64,000 nucleotides of DNA, taken from Streptococcus suis. Its GTDB lineage: Bacteria > Bacillota > Bacilli > Lactobacillales > Streptococcaceae. This document shows, one piece after another, positions 2,259 to 50,545 of the stretch. Location of the stretch: positions 2,232,001 through 2,296,000 of the forward strand of contig CP025095.1 in NCBI GenBank assembly GCA_002831545.1. The letters run 5' to 3'. The notes under the pieces are model-generated. The model was not told the DNA's origin. It made no database searches and worked only from the letters and a program-made list of their open reading frames with translations. The position numbers and the translations under genes are program-made. The first letter of the stretch is position 1; each line of letters opens with the position of its first letter.

Positions 2259-3605
2259 TCATTTCCCTTTAAATTCACGAATCCGTTGAGGAATACCCTC
2301 TAAAAATTGATTCATTTTTTGTTGCCATTCATTTTCAAGAGCTTTCCTTTCTTGAGAATCTAGGTCGTCAATAACCTTACTATTTAGGCCGATTTCGCTT
2401 AAAACTGGACTGACATTAGAGATTGTCTTTTTGCCAAAATGAATTTTACTTTCTTCCATCCATAAATTAAGTGAGGAGCTTAACTCAACTTGTTCCCAAG
2501 GGATTCTGACAAGTGCTGGTTTGCCGAATAATTTCTTCTTAAAGGTGTAGACAGCTTCCTCTGTAAAGATAAGATTTAAACTTAGAGTTCCTTCAAACAT
2601 GGCAAAAATATGTTCTTCATGCAACTCCTTGTAGCTTGGATAATGATACCAAAATACTCTAGCCGAATAAAGGCTTGCATACTCCTTTGGTAAAAGAATT
2701 GTATCTTGTTCTTGCAAGTTTTTTTCTGCAATCATCCATTCAAGATTATTCTCAATAAGGGGAGTCCAAAAAACGTAATCTGCAAGTTCGCTCAGGTACT
2801 GATAGCGTTCATAATCGATAAAAGTTGGGTCTATAGAGGTTCCTTCTAGGGAAGCAAGCAAATCATTTGAAGGCACAGTAAGTCCCGGAATCTCACCCTT
2901 ATAATCCACACGATCTTGCCTTGATTTTAACTCTTTAACAATTTCTTCAGGTAAGAAGTTTTCTAACAAGGCTGTCAAGTTGGCTAACTCATGATTTGCC
3001 CAAAAAGTACCATAAGAAAAGACATTCGTCGGTGCAATACAAAAAGAATAAACATCTACCACATATTCCTCAACGCTTGTAATCGTTTCTGAGCTAGGAA
3101 CATACTGAAGTAATTTTCCCATTACACAAGATGCTAGGTATTGTTCCCAAGTCTGATAACTATTTTTGATACGCTCTGTTTGCTTGGTAAACAGTTCCTC
3201 AAATTCTTCTTTAGTAATCAAGCGAGTAGCATACGATTTCGTCAAGACATCAATTATACGGCAGTCGTCAAAGCCTTTGATTAGTTGAGAACCTGTTAAT
3301 GAATTTAAAGAAAGGTAAAAGTCTTTTACATCAGGAGTGCCTATTCCATCAATAAATGAAGAAACATCTTCTAAAGCATGATAACGACCATCTTCCAGTT
3401 TATCAATTTCTTCTTTTAAACTTGAATAATCTGTAATTCCATAGTTTGTTTCTAACATGGTTCGCAACAGGCCTCTGGTCATCATATTGACACCTGGCAT
3501 GACGACACTCATTAGTTCTTTTTCGATAAATTGTCTATTGACTGAATTGGCAAAAACTGAACTGTATCTGTATGGACTGCACAATAAAACGTATTCCGAT
3601 TGCAT
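2259..3605 (-). CDS. Uncharacterised DUF1266-like protein
   Basis: A 448-residue soluble protein with no signal peptide or membrane segment. The part around residues 55-180 resembles DUF1266 proteins: GITDYSSLKEEI, a short DVSSF stretch, and a helix pair ending in YQTWEQYLASCVMGKLL. Residues about 340-430 (HIFAMFEGTLSLNLIFTEEA onward, then KIHFGKKTISNV) look like a small beta-rich PH-like domain. DUF1266 has no established enzymatic role; these proteins often travel in accessory regions. It has its own terminator and lies in a block inserted between the peptidase and uvrA. Function unknown; the domain call is from pattern recall. Confidence 0.6.
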   Translation of the reverse strand: MQSEYVLLCSPYRYSSVFANSVNRQFIEKELMSVVMPGVNMMTRGLLRTMLETNYGITDYSSLKEEIDKLEDGRYHALEDVSSFIDGIGTPDVKDFYLSLNSLTGSQLIKGFDDCRIIDVLTKSYATRLITKEEFEELFTKQTERIKNSYQTWEQYLASCVMGKLLQYVPSSETITSVEEYVVDVYSFCIAPTNVFSYGTFWANHELANLTALLENFLPEEIVKELKSRQDRVDYKGEIPGLTVPSNDLLASLEGTSIDPTFIDYERYQYLSELADYVFWTPLIENNLEWMIAEKNLQEQDTILLPKEYASLYSARVFWYHYPSYKELHEEHIFAMFEGTLSLNLIFTEEAVYTFKKKLFGKPALVRIPWEQVELSSSLNLWMEESKIHFGKKTISNVSPVLSEIGLNSKVIDDLDSQERKALENEWQQKMNQFLEGIPQRIREFKGK

Positions 3606-3680
3606 GGAGGTCTCCTTGTTAAGTAACTTATTTTTTATATTATATCTGATTTGTACTAGCTTATCAAGCGTAGAAAAAAT

Positions 3681-3710
3681 CAGACAAAAAAGCCGCTAGA
3701 GCGACTTTTC
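3681..3710 (-). terminator. Terminator downstream of the small lipoprotein
   Basis: It is an identical 30-base copy of the terminator at 2206-2235 and lies 26 bases past the stop of the 115-residue lipoprotein gene on the minus strand. Confidence 0.8.
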
Positions 3711-3736
3711 TGACAAATGGAACAGAGTATTTACGT

Positions 3737-4084
3737 TTATTCTTTGGTAAACTCTGCATTTGCTAAAGTTGAATCAAGAGTGTCTAACGTTAGGACCCCA
3801 TCAACAATTTCATAATCCACGGTCGAATTATCATTTTCTGCTGTTAGCGTTTTTCTTTCTTGATCAACAGTCAGTCCCTGTTCCTCAGATTGAGTTTGAC
3901 CATCTTCCCCTTTTTCTTCAAACGTAAGGGTCCCAGTATTATTTTCAATTTTGATAATTACCGTGTAAGTAGTGCCGTCTTTTTCCCTTGAATAGGTATA
4001 GGTCCCGTTATCATTTTTAGCTCCGCAAGCAACTAAGAAAAATACGGTGACGCTCGTTAAAATAAGGGTTAATAATTTTTTCAT
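3737..4084 (-). CDS. Small lipoprotein of unknown function
   Basis: A 115-residue protein with a clear lipoprotein signal: MKKLLTLILTSVTVFFLVAC, lipobox L-V-A-C, Cys20 as the lipidation site. The mature part is acidic and beta-rich (TYTYSREKDGTTYTVIIKIE; later TLDTLDSTLANAEFTKE) and resembles small secreted proteins that form one beta-barrel or sandwich. It would be anchored to the outer face of the membrane. It follows the larger lipoprotein gene by 12 bases, so the two are probably one transcript ending at 3681-3710. Function is not known. Confidence 0.8.
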   Translation of the reverse strand: MKKLLTLILTSVTVFFLVACGAKNDNGTYTYSREKDGTTYTVIIKIENNTGTLTFEEKGEDGQTQSEEQGLTVDQERKTLTAENDNSTVDYEIVDGVLTLDTLDSTLANAEFTKE

Positions 4085-4096
4085 CCTACTCTCCTT

Positions 4097-5185
4097 TTAA
4101 CCTACAGAGTAACTAATGTAATCAATGAGTTCAGGTATAACTTTTATTTCTTTGGCTTCGTGTTCATTTTCGAGTTGATAAACCTTATCTCCCGTATAAA
4201 CATAGTAAGAGTTAGATATCCCATCGAATATCGCAAACTTGATATTTTTAATTTCCTTATTATCAGAAGTATAATAGCCAGTCAGACTACTACCATCAAC
4301 AACTTTTATTTTTTCTAACGTTTTTTTCTGAGTCGTATGACGCAATCTGAGTGCCTGTAGAAACTCATTTACTGTATTGTACTGATAGGTCACTTCAGAT
4401 GCCATCCCCAATTCTTTGTAATGTTCCGCTGAATATTGGCTAATCTGTTCTGTACTGTACTTCAATGATGTTGGTCTTGTTGTTTGTTTTTCAAGGTCAA
4501 TGACAGTTGCTTTGTCGGTATAAGCAGATAAGTAAAAGGTAGCCTGTACTTTACCGTCTTTTACAACAATTTCATCATTATCTGTTACACCAAGATAGTT
4601 TGTTGGTGTATCACTGCCATAAAAGCCATACATTGGCAGTAATTCTCCATCTTCTCCAAGAAAACCTTGAGTTAGGCTAGGACCTTCTGAAAGCAACAGT
4701 TGTCCATATTCTAGTTCGAACTTACCTTGATGAAGTTCCCCAACCTTTAGTTTAGCATTCATTTGATTGTCTTTTGTGACATACAAATGCCCTATTTGAC
4801 TTCCAGGAACATCTCGCTCTAGATACAATTCATAGCTACCATCTTCGTTGATTGCAAAATCAATCTTATAAAATACGGTCAAATTATCATCGGGAGCATG
4901 ACTTGTTTCAGCTGACGGAATGTCAACTATTCCTGAATAAAATCCTACATAGTCTTTTACAGCTTGCTTTGCTTCAGCATCAATTTCAGTATGTTCATCT
5001 ACACGAGGAAAATCATCTGGGCTGCTGACTACTTTCTCACTCTTCGTTGTACTTGAGCTTTCCGTCACCTTTTGTGTACTACTAGAAGTTTCTTGGTTCA
5101 CTTGACTAGTCTGTTCCGTCTGACTACAAGCTACTAGACTTAACGTTGATATTGCTACCAACAATTTTAAAAGATTCTTTTTCAT
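4097..5185 (-). CDS. Lipoprotein of unknown function with Ser/Thr-rich linker
   Basis: I place the start at MKKNLLKLLVAISTLSLVAC (362 residues), because an upstream in-frame ATG would put 14 non-signal residues before the lipid signal, and the chosen ATG has GGAGAAC just before it. The lipobox is L-V-A-C with Cys20. A low-complexity linker (SSSTQKVTESSSTTKSEKVV) precedes a globular domain with repeated short beta motifs such as DYVGFYSG, AINEDGSYELYLERD, MYGFYGSD and GYYTSDNKEIKNIKFAIF. The pattern suggests an extracellular ligand-binding or scaffolding role, but I do not recognise the family. It forms a pair with the small lipoprotein at 3737. Confidence 0.8.
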   Translation of the reverse strand: MKKNLLKLLVAISTLSLVACSQTEQTSQVNQETSSSTQKVTESSSTTKSEKVVSSPDDFPRVDEHTEIDAEAKQAVKDYVGFYSGIVDIPSAETSHAPDDNLTVFYKIDFAINEDGSYELYLERDVPGSQIGHLYVTKDNQMNAKLKVGELHQGKFELEYGQLLLSEGPSLTQGFLGEDGELLPMYGFYGSDTPTNYLGVTDNDEIVVKDGKVQATFYLSAYTDKATVIDLEKQTTRPTSLKYSTEQISQYSAEHYKELGMASEVTYQYNTVNEFLQALRLRHTTQKKTLEKIKVVDGSSLTGYYTSDNKEIKNIKFAIFDGISNSYYVYTGDKVYQLENEHEAKEIKVIPELIDYISYSVG

Positions 5186-44976: not shown

Positions 44977-45228
44977 AAATAGATTCCTTTTCTTTCTTAG
45001 GAGGTTTTTGGATACCTTCCTGATATGCTCTTAGTTTACCTTCCCTACCTAAAAGAAAGATTAAAGATTACCAAAAGAAAACTTAAAGTCTGATTTTTAC
45101 CAGTATGCTTGTACTACCTAGGCTCCTTCCACTACCGTCCATTCAACATTCGTTCCATGATTACCCTTCCCCTCAAGGAATACCCTATTAAAATTGGGTC
45201 CCCTGATGTAGACTGCCTGAATTTGAAC
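44977..45228. promoter_or_regulatory. Intergenic region between lipoprotein and exporter genes
   Basis: It contains the lipoprotein promoter region, and a hairpin GGAATACCCTATTAAAATTGGG near 45178-45200 that could end the strC transcript. I see no gene. Confidence 0.4.
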
Positions 45229-46320
45229 TTACGTCCTTTCCTCTCTATTTGAAAATGAAAAGAATAAAAAGGAAAACAAAGTTATGATGCCAAATAGTAA
45301 ATAATTACTCCTTATACCAAAGTTATCTGCGAAAATACCAGCTAGAAAGTCCGATACCATAAAACTAATGGAAATAAATAAATTATAGACCGACCATGAT
45401 ACTGCTCTATTTTTTTCTATCGAACTATTAAACATAGAATAAAAATGATTATTATAACTTGAATTGAGAACACGCATCAATAAAAATAATACAATTTCTA
45501 TGAATACATTCGTTTGAAAAAACATAAAAATAGCTAGCACTGGTAGTAATAAACTGATTTCAAACTTCATTTTTAGGTAACTCCCCAAAGCCATAGCTAT
45601 ATTAAACATGAATAGTACTATGCCCAACATATCTAGTGAAAGTCCCTGTTCATTTAGAAAAATGCCTGCATAGGAATTGCTGATCATAATTAGAGTTGAG
45701 AATGCTACTCCTAACAGTAGTAAATACCATGGAATCGTTTTAACATCATCAAAGCTAAAAAATCTTGAATCATTAGGTAATTCATTTTTTATTTCAGGTA
45801 ATTGTATCACATTTAAGAGGCTGAAAATGACAAATACAATCGAAATAATAATCGGATAAATATAATTCCTATTCAGTAGATAGGGAGATATAATTGTAAT
45901 AATCGCTATAAAAATGTATTTTACCGTATTGAGGTATTTCAAAAAAGATTGATATACTAGCTCGTTGCCAATTAATTCAAAATTATAAGCATTAAGAACG
46001 CCTGAAGATAAGGATTCTGACAAGCCAAAAAATATCGCTGAAATATATATTATTTTTGATTGTCCTAACAGTAAGCAAGATAGGGCTAAAGTTAATAACA
46101 AATTTGATAAAATCAAAATTTTCTTATAGCCAAACTTACTTGAAAGAAAACTTAAAGGAATATCAAAAACTGAGCCGCATAACTCAGTAATCACTGATAA
46201 AGTAGCTATTTCTGTGAAAGAGAAGCCCAGATGCTTTAAGAGCAATACACCTATAAAATAGTAGGGCAATCCGGACAAAAATATATTCATCATGTATAAG
46301 TTCAAAAATCTTTTACTCAT
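45229..46320 (-). CDS. strC: MFS exporter of the streptide-like cluster
   Basis: A 363-residue protein with about eleven or twelve hydrophobic segments and an MFS-like basic loop (SSKFGYKKILIL). The start is the ATG that overlaps the strB stop as ATGA (46318-46320), giving MSKRFLNLYMMNIFLSGLPY; the longer reading starts at a TTG. It is translationally coupled to strB. In this setting it most likely exports the modified peptide, but I see no protease domain, so leader removal needs another enzyme. The strC name is by position. Confidence 0.8.
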   Translation of the reverse strand: MSKRFLNLYMMNIFLSGLPYYFIGVLLLKHLGFSFTEIATLSVITELCGSVFDIPLSFLSSKFGYKKILILSNLLLTLALSCLLLGQSKIIYISAIFFGLSESLSSGVLNAYNFELIGNELVYQSFLKYLNTVKYIFIAIITIISPYLLNRNYIYPIIISIVFVIFSLLNVIQLPEIKNELPNDSRFFSFDDVKTIPWYLLLLGVAFSTLIMISNSYAGIFLNEQGLSLDMLGIVLFMFNIAMALGSYLKMKFEISLLLPVLAIFMFFQTNVFIEIVLFLLMRVLNSSYNNHFYSMFNSSIEKNRAVSWSVYNLFISISFMVSDFLAGIFADNFGIRSNYLLFGIITLFSFLFFSFSNREERT

Positions 46321-47636
46321 AATTGGCAAACTGAGTCTCTAAAATATTCTGGACTCTTCTCCTTGATCAAGTTAATATAGCAGCCACCCTCGCAAATTTT
46401 TAACAATCCACAAGATAAACACTTAGAATTCTTCGTTCTAAAAGAACGAATCCCTCCATACAACGGATCATCATACCAAACATCTAACAAATCTTTTTCA
46501 AAGGCATTCTGCTTAGTTTGATTAACTCCTAAAAAAGCAATGCAGGGCAAGATATCCCCATTAGACATTATTTCCATCTTAGTATATTTTGCACGACATC
46601 CATAATACATTTCGTCAAACTCTGAAAATTCAATTGAATTATTTATCAACTCTGGATAAGCGGTGAAAAGATGACATCCCTCAGTAGCAAAATTTAAATT
46701 TGCTTCACGTTGAGTTATATAATCTGTAACATACTCATTCAACCTTCTCAAATCAGCCAAATCGTATTTTTTCTTTATTTTCGTATATCCTGTTACCTCA
46801 GAATAATTAGCTACTGAAAACCTATCTATTTTATTCTCTATACAAAAATCAACCAATTCTATAATTTGCTCATAGCTTTGCTTTGTATACACTGCATTAA
46901 TTCTACATTTTTTTCCAACCTCATTAAAGTACTTCGCTAATTTTATTTGTCTATCAGGTCTCACCCCCATTAATTCAAAATTTAATTTAGAATCTAAAGT
47001 CTGCAAAGATAAAACCGGTGTAATATATTTAGATTTAGCTAGAATTTCTACTGTACTTTTCTTTATTAATTGGGCATTAGTTGTTATAGTAGTCTTTATC
47101 TTTAGTTCCTCACAAGCTATCAACAAATTATCAATATCAAAATATCTAGTCGGTTCCCCTCCTAAAATTGAAACACTTAACACTCCATTATCTTTTGCTT
47201 GGCGCAAAATTCTTTCCCAATCTTTAGCAGGTTTGGCATTTCTATCTTCACGATTTGCTAAAAAACAAAAACCACATTTTAAATCACAGTACATACTGGG
47301 GTATATTACTAGTTCAAGCGGAAAACTCAGTATGTTATGTTTTTTTAATTTTGCTACATGCTTTCTCGCATTTTGAAGAGTCTCGTAAGGATTGTTCGAT
47401 GAATCCTCAATATTATTATCAGAATAGATATTTAATGATAATGCTCTCTCTAGTTTCCCCATCTCAATTTCTTTTTTAAAAAAAGAAGTTGCAATTTCAA
47501 TACCATGATTTTGAACTAAATATAGAAAGAAAGCCTCAGTCTCATCTAACTCTATTCTTTCAAAATTTGTTTTGTTTATTAAAATTCCACCAAACTTTTC
47601 TAATCTAAATAAAATATCTTCTGAAATTGTCCTCAT
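46317..47636 (-). CDS. strB: Radical SAM/SPASM peptide-modifying enzyme (StrB-like)
   Basis: A 439-residue radical SAM enzyme. The cluster motif is CDLKCGFC (Cys117, Cys121, Cys124), the SAM core follows, and the C-terminal SPASM part has GCRAKYTK, ILPCIAF, CLSCGLLKICEGGC and a final SVCQL cysteine for auxiliary Fe-S clusters. StrB of streptide clusters joins Lys and Trp side chains in the peptide precursor. I use the ATG at 47634-47636 with AAAGAGGTG upstream. It follows the precursor strA after 63 bases, which include a terminator hairpin, and overlaps strC. Confidence 0.92.
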   Translation of the reverse strand: MRTISEDILFRLEKFGGILINKTNFERIELDETEAFFLYLVQNHGIEIATSFFKKEIEMGKLERALSLNIYSDNNIEDSSNNPYETLQNARKHVAKLKKHNILSFPLELVIYPSMYCDLKCGFCFLANREDRNAKPAKDWERILRQAKDNGVLSVSILGGEPTRYFDIDNLLIACEELKIKTTITTNAQLIKKSTVEILAKSKYITPVLSLQTLDSKLNFELMGVRPDRQIKLAKYFNEVGKKCRINAVYTKQSYEQIIELVDFCIENKIDRFSVANYSEVTGYTKIKKKYDLADLRRLNEYVTDYITQREANLNFATEGCHLFTAYPELINNSIEFSEFDEMYYGCRAKYTKMEIMSNGDILPCIAFLGVNQTKQNAFEKDLLDVWYDDPLYGGIRSFRTKNSKCLSCGLLKICEGGCYINLIKEKSPEYFRDSVCQL

Positions 47637-47650
47637 CTTGAACACCTCTT

Positions 47651-47680
47651 TAAAAAAGCAGAGGAAAATAACCTCTGCTT
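47651..47680 (-). terminator. Terminator between strA and strB
   Basis: On the minus strand AAGCAGAGG-TTATTTT-CCTCTGCTT with TTTT. It lies between the precursor and the enzyme, so it likely makes more strA than strB mRNA. Confidence 0.85.
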
Positions 47681-47699
47681 AACCTATGTATAAATTACT

Positions 47700-47768
47700 T
47701 TATACATGCCAACCGTCGCCTTTTGCCATAGCACTAGACTCAAGGACTTTTTCAAGTTCTTTTGACAT
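47700..47768 (-). CDS. strA: Streptide-like RiPP precursor StrA
   Basis: A 22-codon ORF: leader MSKELEKVLESSAM and core AKGDGWHV, with AAAGGAG nine bases before the ATG. From memory, the S. thermophilus streptide precursor has the same leader type and the core AKGDGWKVM followed by a seven-residue trailer; streptide has a Lys2-Trp6 bond. Here K-G-D-G-W gives the same KxxxW, but the C-terminal K-V-M is replaced by H-V and there is no trailer. It is the first gene of strABC on the minus strand, just after rgg. It is too short for most ORF callers. Confidence 0.9.
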   Translation of the reverse strand: MSKELEKVLESSAMAKGDGWHV

Positions 47769-47832
47769 AATTGCTACTCCTTTCGAACGTGATACTGTAA
47801 GTATATTCTTTTAAATCAATTACAATAAAATG

Positions 47833-47845
47833 TTCCCATATATGC
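47833..47845 (-). promoter_or_regulatory. Shared Rgg box upstream of strA
   Basis: On the minus strand GCATATATGGGAA (followed by CATTTTATTG) is 65 bases before the strA ATG and directly after the rgg stop. The same 13-mer is found before shp. Confidence 0.75.
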
Positions 47846-47848
47846 CAA

Positions 47849-48712
47849 TTAACTATTTTCTGTTAAAATTTTTTTCAAATGTTCTTCATAAATCTGTGCC
47901 ACATGATCACTACCTGCTAATTTCATCGCTCCAATACACTTCCTCATTTCCACAATCGCAAATTTACTTCCAGTTTTGCGATAGCGATAAAGATTTTGAG
48001 CATAGAGAAAAACAAGTCTCTCATAAATTTCTGTTTCGATAAAAAAGCACTGTTTCAATTGCTTCTCAAAATACAAAGCATCTATAAGATTTTGCCGTTC
48101 GATACAGGTGATATAGGCATTAAGTAACATCGTAGAAATAAGACGACGATTATTAGGGATTTCTTTAAAAAAGTCTGACCGTCTAGACATTTCCCTCGCT
48201 AATACTATGAAAACATCATATTTCAAGACATCTAAAGTATTCATGAAAATCAAAAGTTCATAATAGCCCCAGTATTCCACACTAAATAAATAGTCAGTTA
48301 ATTCATCTAAGTCTTTATCATTGTAATAATTTTCCCCTGACAAATCTTGCAGGCGAATCTTTAATAAAATGATATTGATGTGATAAAATTTCTCCCGTTT
48401 ATCCTCCGATTCTATCTGAGAATAAAGAAGTTTTTTCATGCCTTCGACATCACGAGTAGATACATAATAACGTACTTTTGACAGGAGCTCATTTAGTTCA
48501 TCTCTATGAAAATCATGAACCGCATACATAAATTCATCGATCGGCATGTTAATTTCATCCAATATGAGTAAGAACTTTGAAATCGTTAAGTCAGTCTCTC
48601 CTTTCTCAAATCGAGAGAGCTGAGACGTTGAGATACCAACCTTTGCGACATCTTTTAATTTTAATCCTCTCGATTCTCGAAACTTTTTAAAAATTTCTCC
48701 AAAATTTTTCAT
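47849..48712 (-). CDS. rgg: Rgg family transcription regulator
   Basis: I take the ATG with GGAGGAGAG just upstream, giving MKNFGEIFKKFRESRGLKLK (287 residues). The N-terminal HTH (about 1-60; STSQLSRFEKGETDLTISKF) is followed by helical repeats that bind a peptide. Next to a divergent SHP gene and upstream of a radical SAM cluster, it is the expected sensor: imported SHP binds Rgg and turns on shp and strABC. It is transcribed in the same direction as strA. Confidence 0.93.
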   Translation of the reverse strand: MKNFGEIFKKFRESRGLKLKDVAKVGISTSQLSRFEKGETDLTISKFLLILDEINMPIDEFMYAVHDFHRDELNELLSKVRYYVSTRDVEGMKKLLYSQIESEDKREKFYHINIILLKIRLQDLSGENYYNDKDLDELTDYLFSVEYWGYYELLIFMNTLDVLKYDVFIVLAREMSRRSDFFKEIPNNRRLISTMLLNAYITCIERQNLIDALYFEKQLKQCFFIETEIYERLVFLYAQNLYRYRKTGSKFAIVEMRKCIGAMKLAGSDHVAQIYEEHLKKILTENS

Positions 48713-48729
48713 CTCTCCTCCTCCATCAC

Positions 48730-48742
48730 GCATATATGGGAA
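48730..48742 (+). promoter_or_regulatory. Shared Rgg box upstream of shp
   Basis: GCATATATGGGAA (followed by TAATTTTTG), then TATAAT 17 bases further on (48760-48765). It is identical to the strA box and has the same orientation to its gene. Confidence 0.75.
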
Positions 48743-48804
48743 TAATTTTTGTTTGATCCTATAATAGCATACAATAAAGAAAAATAAAAGTGAGGATTAT
48801 CACA

Positions 48805-48876
48805 TGAAAAAATACCATTTATTAACTCTTCTTTTTGTTATTTTAGAAGGAATTATCGTCATCGGTGTAGGATAAA
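48805..48876 (+). CDS. shp: SHP pheromone precursor
   Basis: A 23-residue hydrophobic peptide, MKKYHLLTLLFVILEGIIVI and GVG, with GTGAGGATT upstream. It has the SHP pattern: basic start, hydrophobic middle, then an acidic residue at the start of the mature part, EGIIVIGVG. From memory, S. thermophilus SHP1358 matures to EGIIVIVVG, so the difference is one residue. It should be exported, trimmed (Eep-type), re-imported by oligopeptide permease, and bound by Rgg. The stop codon abuts a group II intron remnant. Confidence 0.92.
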
Positions 48877-48878
48877 AT

Positions 48879-49079
48879 CGAGTAAGAGCTACTCACCACC
48901 CCCTCTCACACCACCGTACATACCGTTCGGTAAACGGCGGTTCAACTAATTTTTAACGCATGTCGTTCTAGATAATAATCTAAGTAAGAAGCCAGTCCAT
49001 GTTTAGCGAGGACTGGTTTTGATATGGCACATTTCAATACCGACTTCTGAGCCACTAATGGATAACGGTCACCCTATCC
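48879..49079 (-). mobile_element. Group II intron remnant, 3' end with maturase C-terminus
   Basis: On the minus strand a broken reading frame continues GDRYPLVAQKSVLKCAISKP and HGLASYLDYYLERHALKIS, stopping at 48942-48944, as in the C-terminus of intron-encoded reverse transcriptases; a TAG just upstream interrupts it. Next come ACCGCCGTTTACCGAACGGT and ATGTACGGTGGTGTGAGAGG, typical of the domain IV-VI region, and the end CTCTTACTCGAT. The catalytic part is missing. The intron end lies at the shp stop codon. Confidence 0.75.
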
Positions 49080-49265
49080 AGATACTTTATTCGCTATATA
49101 CGCCTTATACTAAATTAGAATCAAATTTCACAAACCGTTCCGGCATAGCTACCAACAACTATTCATTACATTTTGCAAAGTACTGAAACTAGAAAATTTT
49201 TAGGTAGTTTATCATTAAATTTACATATCTGATATAAAAATTTCCAATTATACTCATTTTGATTT
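49080..49265. other. Non-coding stretch between intron remnant and IS
   Basis: A+T-rich sequence with no recognisable gene or repeat. It may be leftover intron or chromosomal sequence. Confidence 0.4.
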
Positions 49266-50422
49266 TATACTCAGTTAAAATCAAAAATAGCGGAAGTCCA
49301 GTCTCTATCTACAATTGATTTGAGTTGATAAGCGGTTAAGGTTTGAATAACCTCTTGAAGTTTATCGATTACCTCATTTAAGGTCCTAAATACTTTATTC
49401 TTGAAACCAAGTTTACGAATCTCAGTCCAGACTTGCTCAATAGGATTCATTTCAGGTGTGTAGGGTGGAATGAAGGTAAATTCAATATTCTTAGGGATAT
49501 TTAAGGTCTGAGATTTATGCCAGATGGCATTATCCATGACTAAAACAATATAATCTTCTGGATAAGCTGCCGATAGTTGGCGTAGAAATGCATTCATCCA
49601 ATCACTATTACATCCGCCTGCTATGATGAAAAACGAGTCGCCTGTATGGGCATCCACAGCTCCATAACAATAGCGGTACTCACGAATATGATGACTTGCT
49701 ACGTGAGGACGATAACCTTTAGGAGACCAACACGAGCCAAGTTTACTGATACGCCCAAAACCCGCCTCATCTTGATACATAAGGCGGATTTTTTGATATT
49801 CTTTTCCATCAATAAAGCGCTTACTCGTTCTCTCCTCGAATAAAGATTTTATTTTTAGACGCTAAAATGGTTTCGGCGTCTGCTTTTTTCGGATATTGGG
49901 GACGTGGGCTAACTTTTGTTGCTTACTGCGTAAGCTTTATTTCCCCTCTCAAAGAATCTTTTGATTCTTTGACCCATCCATGACGTTTCAATAGTTGGTA
50001 AAAAACGTCTTTAGTCGTTGCGTAACCAAGTTTATCTTGATAGGCTTTAAAGAGGGTGTTAACAGTAACGAATTCTCCATTCAAAGAGGAAGAGAGATGC
50101 TCTTTAAGGAAAACTTCTTCCTCCTCATGCGTCATATACGAACGGCGGCGACCACCACGATTTTCCTTTAAGAGGGCTTCTAAGCCACCACTTAGATAGC
50201 GATTCAATAAGTTTCGGACTGTCTGATGGACAAAACCTACTGATTTAGCTACGGATGTTAAATTATGGCATTCAGAATAAAGAATGAGTGCCTGGATTTT
50301 TCTATGATGCGGAGCATTATTTTTATCTTTAAGTGCTTGCTTTAATTCTTCAACTTGTGTCTGGGTAAATTCTTTTGTCATAATACTATCATATCGCTAT
50401 TTTTGATTTTTGTTAAGTATTA
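49266..50422 (-). mobile_element. IS630-family insertion sequence
   Basis: Terminal inverted repeats: left end TATACTCAGTTAAAATCAAAAATAGCG (49266-49292) against right end CGCTATTTTTGATTTTTGTTAAGTATTA (50395-50422). They match over the inner 17 bases (AAATCAAAAATAGCG). About 1.16 kb, typical size. It separates the two flanks of an intron-like sequence. TA target duplication would be expected. Confidence 0.82.
49271..50381 (-). pseudogene. IS630-family transposase, interrupted
   Basis: The N-terminal part (49923-50381, 152 codons) has the HTH: MTKEFTQTQVEELKQALKDK, then SVAKSVGFVHQTVRNLLNRY. It stops at TAA (49923-49925), but the same frame goes on with ATKVSPRPQYPKKADAETIL, so this is a nonsense change. 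A frameshift near 49865 then leads to the DDE part (49271-49780; YQDEAGFGRISK, LVMDNAIWHKS, IPPYTPEMNPIEQVW with the three acidic residues). Programmed frameshifting is known in this family, but the extra stop suggests decay. Confidence 0.78.
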
Positions 50423-50545
50423 GGTCTCGACCTCACGATAGTCAGACTTGGGAGTCGCTATTGGGTTCATGGGCTGTGGGTGCCCACAGAGGACTTGCTC
50501 CTCCGATTTACGACATACCGATGTACTCAAAGTGCTTAGGAACTA
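50423..50545. other. Possible 5' side of the group II intron remnant
   Basis: Structured, GC-rich sequence (CTGTGGGTGCCCACAG hairpin, AGGACTTGCTCCT hairpin) on the far side of the IS. It could be domain I of the same intron, minus strand, but I cannot confirm it. Confidence 0.35.

Follow-up and report, generated by a model that had tools for sequence, protein, structure and literature searches.

The streptides are ribosomally synthesized and post-translationally modified peptides (RiPPs) with a KxxxW core, in which a radical S-adenosylmethionine (SAM) enzyme joins the lysine to the tryptophan. In Streptococcus thermophilus, the streptide (Pep1357c) system comprises StrA–StrB and the regulatory pair Rgg1358/SHP1358, SHP denoting a short hydrophobic peptide pheromone. 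The mature product is AKGDGWKVM minus 2.016 and the associated SHP is EGIIVIVVG, the operon needs both PptAB, which exports SHP, and the protease Eep, and an eep mutant supplied with SHP makes streptide again, to an extent that depends on the dose (PMC12445099); an efflux transporter is also part of the system (PMC13361665). In Streptococcus suis, SuiB forms a carbon–carbon bond between Lys2 and Trp6 of its substrate SuiA, a Lys–Trp radical intermediate has been trapped, and StrB and AgaB are regarded as SuiB orthologues (PMC9012708); SuiB is described as a streptide-type enzyme with a solved structure (PMC8326336). A review table places S. suis under ‘other streptides’, with the function entered there as not characterised (PMC13361665). 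This article describes a five-gene locus at positions 45229-48875 of a 64,000-nucleotide stretch of the S. suis genome (contig CP025095.1, positions 2,232,001 to 2,296,000; hereafter the window), which is almost certainly this known S. suis streptide (KxxxW) cluster, made up of suiA, suiB, a transporter gene of the major facilitator superfamily (MFS) and an Rgg/SHP pair. With the S. thermophilus system it shares the Rgg/SHP pair, the radical SAM enzyme, the KxxxW core and the efflux transporter, whereas its predicted pheromone is EGIIVIGVG.

The genes strC, strB, strA and rgg lie on the minus strand and shp lies divergently on the plus strand. The initial annotation had named these five parts (strA, a SPASM enzyme, an MFS exporter, rgg and shp), and each was confirmed as an open reading frame (ORF). 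The features of the locus are as follows.

45229..46329, minus strand: strC, MFS transporter and putative exporter, 366 amino acids (PF07690, MFS_1, 78 bits, cut-off 33.4)
46317..47636, minus strand: strB/suiB, radical SAM/SPASM Lys–Trp cyclase, 439 amino acids (PDB 5v1q/5v1s/5v1t, TIGR04080)
47656..47680, minus strand: hairpin of 8-9 pairs with a short T run, between strA and strB (shuffle z-score, separate folds)
47700..47768, minus strand: strA/suiA, 22-codon precursor MSKELEKVLESSAMAKGDGWHV (PDB 5v1t chain B, TIGR04079)
47833..47845, minus strand: box GCATATATGGGAA ahead of strA, putative Rgg operator, 77 bases before the ATG
47849..48712, minus strand: rgg, Rgg-family transcriptional regulator, 287 amino acids (Rgg_C, 206.4 bits, cut-off 27)
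48730..48742, plus strand: box GCATATATGGGAA ahead of shp, putative Rgg operator, second exact copy in the genome
48804..48875, plus strand: shp, 23-codon pheromone precursor MKKYHLLTLLFVILEGIIVIGVG with predicted mature form EGIIVIGVG (ORF sequence and place)

For strB, the ATG at 47636 is a likelier start than the listed GTG at 47645, because the solved chain aligns from 47636; for rgg, the ATG at 48712, from which its relatives align, was preferred to 48733. The Radical_SAM, SPASM, MFS_1 and Rgg_C domains of the cluster proteins all exceed their Pfam cut-offs. A strC-like gene was matched in 19/19 loci searched, several of them from the same genome, at 48-100% identity. The shp ORF matched no NCBIfam family and was judged by its sequence and position.

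Identification of the cluster depends chiefly on the precursor and its enzyme. All 22 residues of the precursor are identical to chain B of PDB 5v1t (‘SuiA 22mer’, 22/22), and the strB product aligns over its full 439 residues with the SuiB chain of 5v1q, 5v1s and 5v1t (E 2.5e-298); the two residues that differ in SuiB are the only difference seen from the SuiA/SuiB pair of S. suis. A 2017 PNAS paper by Davis et al. is said to deal with this pair. The letters GDGWHV, which are present in the structure entry, were found in no paper by an open-access text search. Together with these matches, the family models uphold the view of the initial annotation that rgg and shp here adjoin a cluster of the streptide type whose core is K-x-x-x-W: strB matches TIGR04080, the model for ‘KxxxW cyclic peptide radical SAM maturase’, at 877.8 bits (cut-off 500), and strA matches TIGR04079, the model for ‘KxxxW-cyclized peptide pheromone’, at 45.2 bits (cut-off 35), with strA a single match within its own genome. 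Because both exceed these cut-offs, the five-gene locus is, judged by sequence, more than a chance arrangement. It carries what marks a streptide/KxxxW radical SAM RiPP, namely a K-x-x-x-W precursor with a leader, an adjacent maturase, a transporter in the operon and rgg with a divergent shp. Membership of the WGK (tryglysin) group is not indicated, since strB reaches only 39.2 bits against NF050035 (cut-off 650), and a search for other RiPP maturases of the radical SAM type with the SPASM model TIGR04085 matched only strB in this genome. The feature is therefore real yet already characterised, including by a crystal structure of the enzyme with an identical precursor, and serves mainly as a check.

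The cluster stands out from the surrounding DNA, with a G+C content of 30.8% for 45229-48875 against 41.6% and 42.8% in the flanking 5-kb stretches. At the DNA level, its genes match the S. suis records L002 and L003 with 99.9-100% identity, and the 395 bases past shp match them with 100% identity. The gene adjoining strC (Cthe_2159 family) is only 90.8% and 81.4% identical in L002 and L003, respectively. Because the cluster is near-identical while its neighbour has diverged, the unit seems likely to have spread recently in the S. suis group, and the region 45229-49270 as a whole points to a recent transfer or sweep. A plasmid home was considered and rejected; the plasmid collection gave no match at megablast sensitivity, although records near the window’s own genome may be omitted there.

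The same contrast bears on whether the cluster has decayed or fallen silent, so that the product is no longer made. Related clusters are indeed broken. In a survey of 284 Streptococcus genomes, the window’s own included, strB was matched in 12 (E no higher than 1e-30); among them, strB is broken or incomplete in G108 and G181, and G249 (locus L017) has stops in strB and no strA that could be found. Transposase-type ORFs, with DDE_3 above its cut-off, and a sub-threshold group II intron match also lie just past shp. Decay is nevertheless very improbable here, as all five genes are open and the cluster DNA, unlike the gene adjoining strC, has stayed near-identical in L002 and L003. Locus L006 (S. 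suis HCJ31), probably the same genome as G249, is itself broken, with about 1.7 kb of other DNA splitting strB near its 5' end at about 3325-5005 and no strA.

A search for strA in these genomes used the pattern KG[DEN]GW, in stretches with limited flanks, so that a differing core would escape detection; it found strA with such a core in 11/12 strB-bearing genomes, G108 and G181 among them and G249 outside. Ten of the 11 encode one core in 21-22 residues, with a stop after GWK, GWR, GWKL or GWHV. In G246, G108 and G181 an upstream in-frame Met gives a longer form of strA, the inner Met giving 21 residues. The sole double-core form is that of G183, whose strA has 30 residues and two cores, AKGDGWKVMAKGDGWK, which looks like a tandem duplication. 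The S. thermophilus streptide precursor is likewise longer and has a double core. Because 10/11 genomes encode one core, the single core prevails here, the double core is the exception, and loss of a trailer in S. suis was accordingly rejected. The same gene set occurs in S. agalactiae, S. mitis and further streptococci. In the S. agalactiae and S. mitis clusters (L004, L008 and L009), strB is 90-95% identical over the best segment, and these clusters also have a single core without a trailer and a hairpin between strA and strB; their cores end in GWK, not GWHV, and their SHPs end in EGIIIIVVG (L004, L008) or GGIMIIVVG (L009). AgaB is presumably the S. agalactiae enzyme.

The absence of a trailer and the ending in His-Val, both of which the initial annotation had reported, are real (strA ends in MAKGDGWHV), and the GWHV ending was found only in the window genome, G256, G262 and the records L002 and L003, the last two probably being the G256 and G262 genomes themselves. 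What the annotation built on them does not hold: the ‘shortened, altered core’ is the usual form, as seen in 10 of the 11 genomes with a readable strA, and the ‘new chemistry’ expected beside the crosslink concerns a precursor identical to the substrate in the solved SuiB complex, with a published Lys2–Trp6 bond. Given the identical SuiA 22mer and the published cyclisation, both the His that follows Trp and the lack of a trailer are features of an already studied substrate. That the locus encodes a new streptide variant, with a shortened core, a His after Trp and a chemically new, untrimmed AKGDGWHV, is thus virtually untenable, for the rarity of GWHV and the lack of a trailer after it are outweighed by the solved SuiA–SuiB complex, the published cyclisation (PMC9012708) and the prevalence of trailer-less precursors.

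The shp ORF recurs unchanged in L002, L003, L010 and L012. The search pattern for shp missed five of the 11 genomes, including the window; with the ORFs of G256, G262, G246 and the window taken from a separate reading, the comparison covers every genome but G108. The predicted ends are EGIIVIGVG in three genomes (window, G256 and G262), EGIIIIVVG in three (G002, G103 and G240), and, in one genome each, EGIIVIVVG (G183), EGIIIIVMG (G181), GGIMIIVVS (G246) and TIIVIGVG (G059). In S. thermophilus, EGIIVIGVG is the SHP of the pair Sthermo_13, whose Rgg precedes the streptosactin operon, and it is EGIIVIVVG that goes with streptide (PMC12445099); SHP279 of LMD-9 is given by the same letters, EGIIVIGVG. 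The streptosactin system thus has a mature SHP identical to the one predicted here and differs in its biosynthetic operon and peptide product. It is possible that one pheromone is common to two RiPP systems.

A candidate operator for Rgg is the box GCATATATGGGAA. Its exact sequence occurs only twice in the 2.72-Mb genome, once ahead of strA and once ahead of shp, and it precedes shp exactly also in G002, G103, G183 and G240. Ahead of strA, the best match lies at an identical 77 bases in 10/11 genomes with 0-2 mismatches (none in the three GWHV genomes), and 0/200 shuffles equal any of these, where the shuffles preserve base composition only and the related sequences are not independent.

Several observations weigh against control of the cluster by this pheromone through this box. 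The predicted EGIIVIGVG is one residue off the SHP of S. thermophilus streptide. The box ahead of strA is inexact in relatives, with one mismatch in six genomes and two in one, and in the most distant genome, G059, it has three mismatches and lies 75 bases out, which 4/200 shuffles match. With two mismatches allowed, the window count of 2 does not exceed chance (shuffle mean 1.62; 51/100 shuffles reach 2); with one mismatch allowed, four further copies appear in the genome (1 in the reversed control), and no detected Rgg gene lies closer to them than 29 kb. A scan for sigma-70-type promoters gave 20 sites against 21.7 in shuffles, no excess. The position of the strA box is conserved and its exact letters are not. 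A regulon beyond the cluster was rejected, as the four one-mismatch copies come no closer than 29 kb to any of the six Rgg_C matches in the genome (four of which are above cut-off).

Production of the ring peptide is nonetheless probably under quorum-sensing control. By analogy with S. thermophilus, the SHP, predicted as EGIIVIGVG, would accumulate, be re-imported and activate Rgg, which would then switch on shp and the strA–strB–strC operon, probably by way of the common GCATATATGGGAA box. SuiB would link Lys2 to Trp6 of the core, as published for SuiA of identical sequence, after which the leader would be removed and the peptide exported by strC, as is presumed from streptide. More speculatively, and on balance doubtfully, the S. 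suis SHP may cross-activate with the S. thermophilus streptosactin system and the secreted product may be the eight-residue ring peptide AKGDGWHV without trimming, with a free His-Val tail that might be recognised differently from streptide.

The precursor and enzyme genes are separated by a hairpin, AGCAGAGG-loop-CCTCTGCT followed by a T run, which folds better than 198/200 shuffles (z-score -2.72; 2/200 as good). Judged from separate folds, since the G059 stem was wrongly placed when the intergenic sequences were aligned, the stem forms in 11/11 genomes with strA; in G059, where strB is 64% identical, the innermost pair is A-U and not G-C, the loop differs and the T run is shorter. The natural reading is of a leaky terminator or mRNA-stability element that would hold the precursor above the enzyme. 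A terminator pattern scan did not report the strA–strB hairpin, and the consensus terminator scan gave no excess over shuffles. In 45100-50500, Rfam gave four further weak matches (E 0.24 to 0.97), one of them over the hairpin, which were taken as chance.

Beyond the region of recent spread, two adjacent transposase-type ORFs, which we take to be of the IS630 type, lie at 49271-50381 on the minus strand, with DDE_3 and HTH_29 above cut-off; the stretch between them at 49917-50034 is unmatched in L002 and L003. Directly past the shp stop, at 48877-48942 on the minus strand, is a sub-threshold hit for the group II intron family RF00029 (34.9 bits against a cut-off of 40, E 0.00032), which is probably a remnant.

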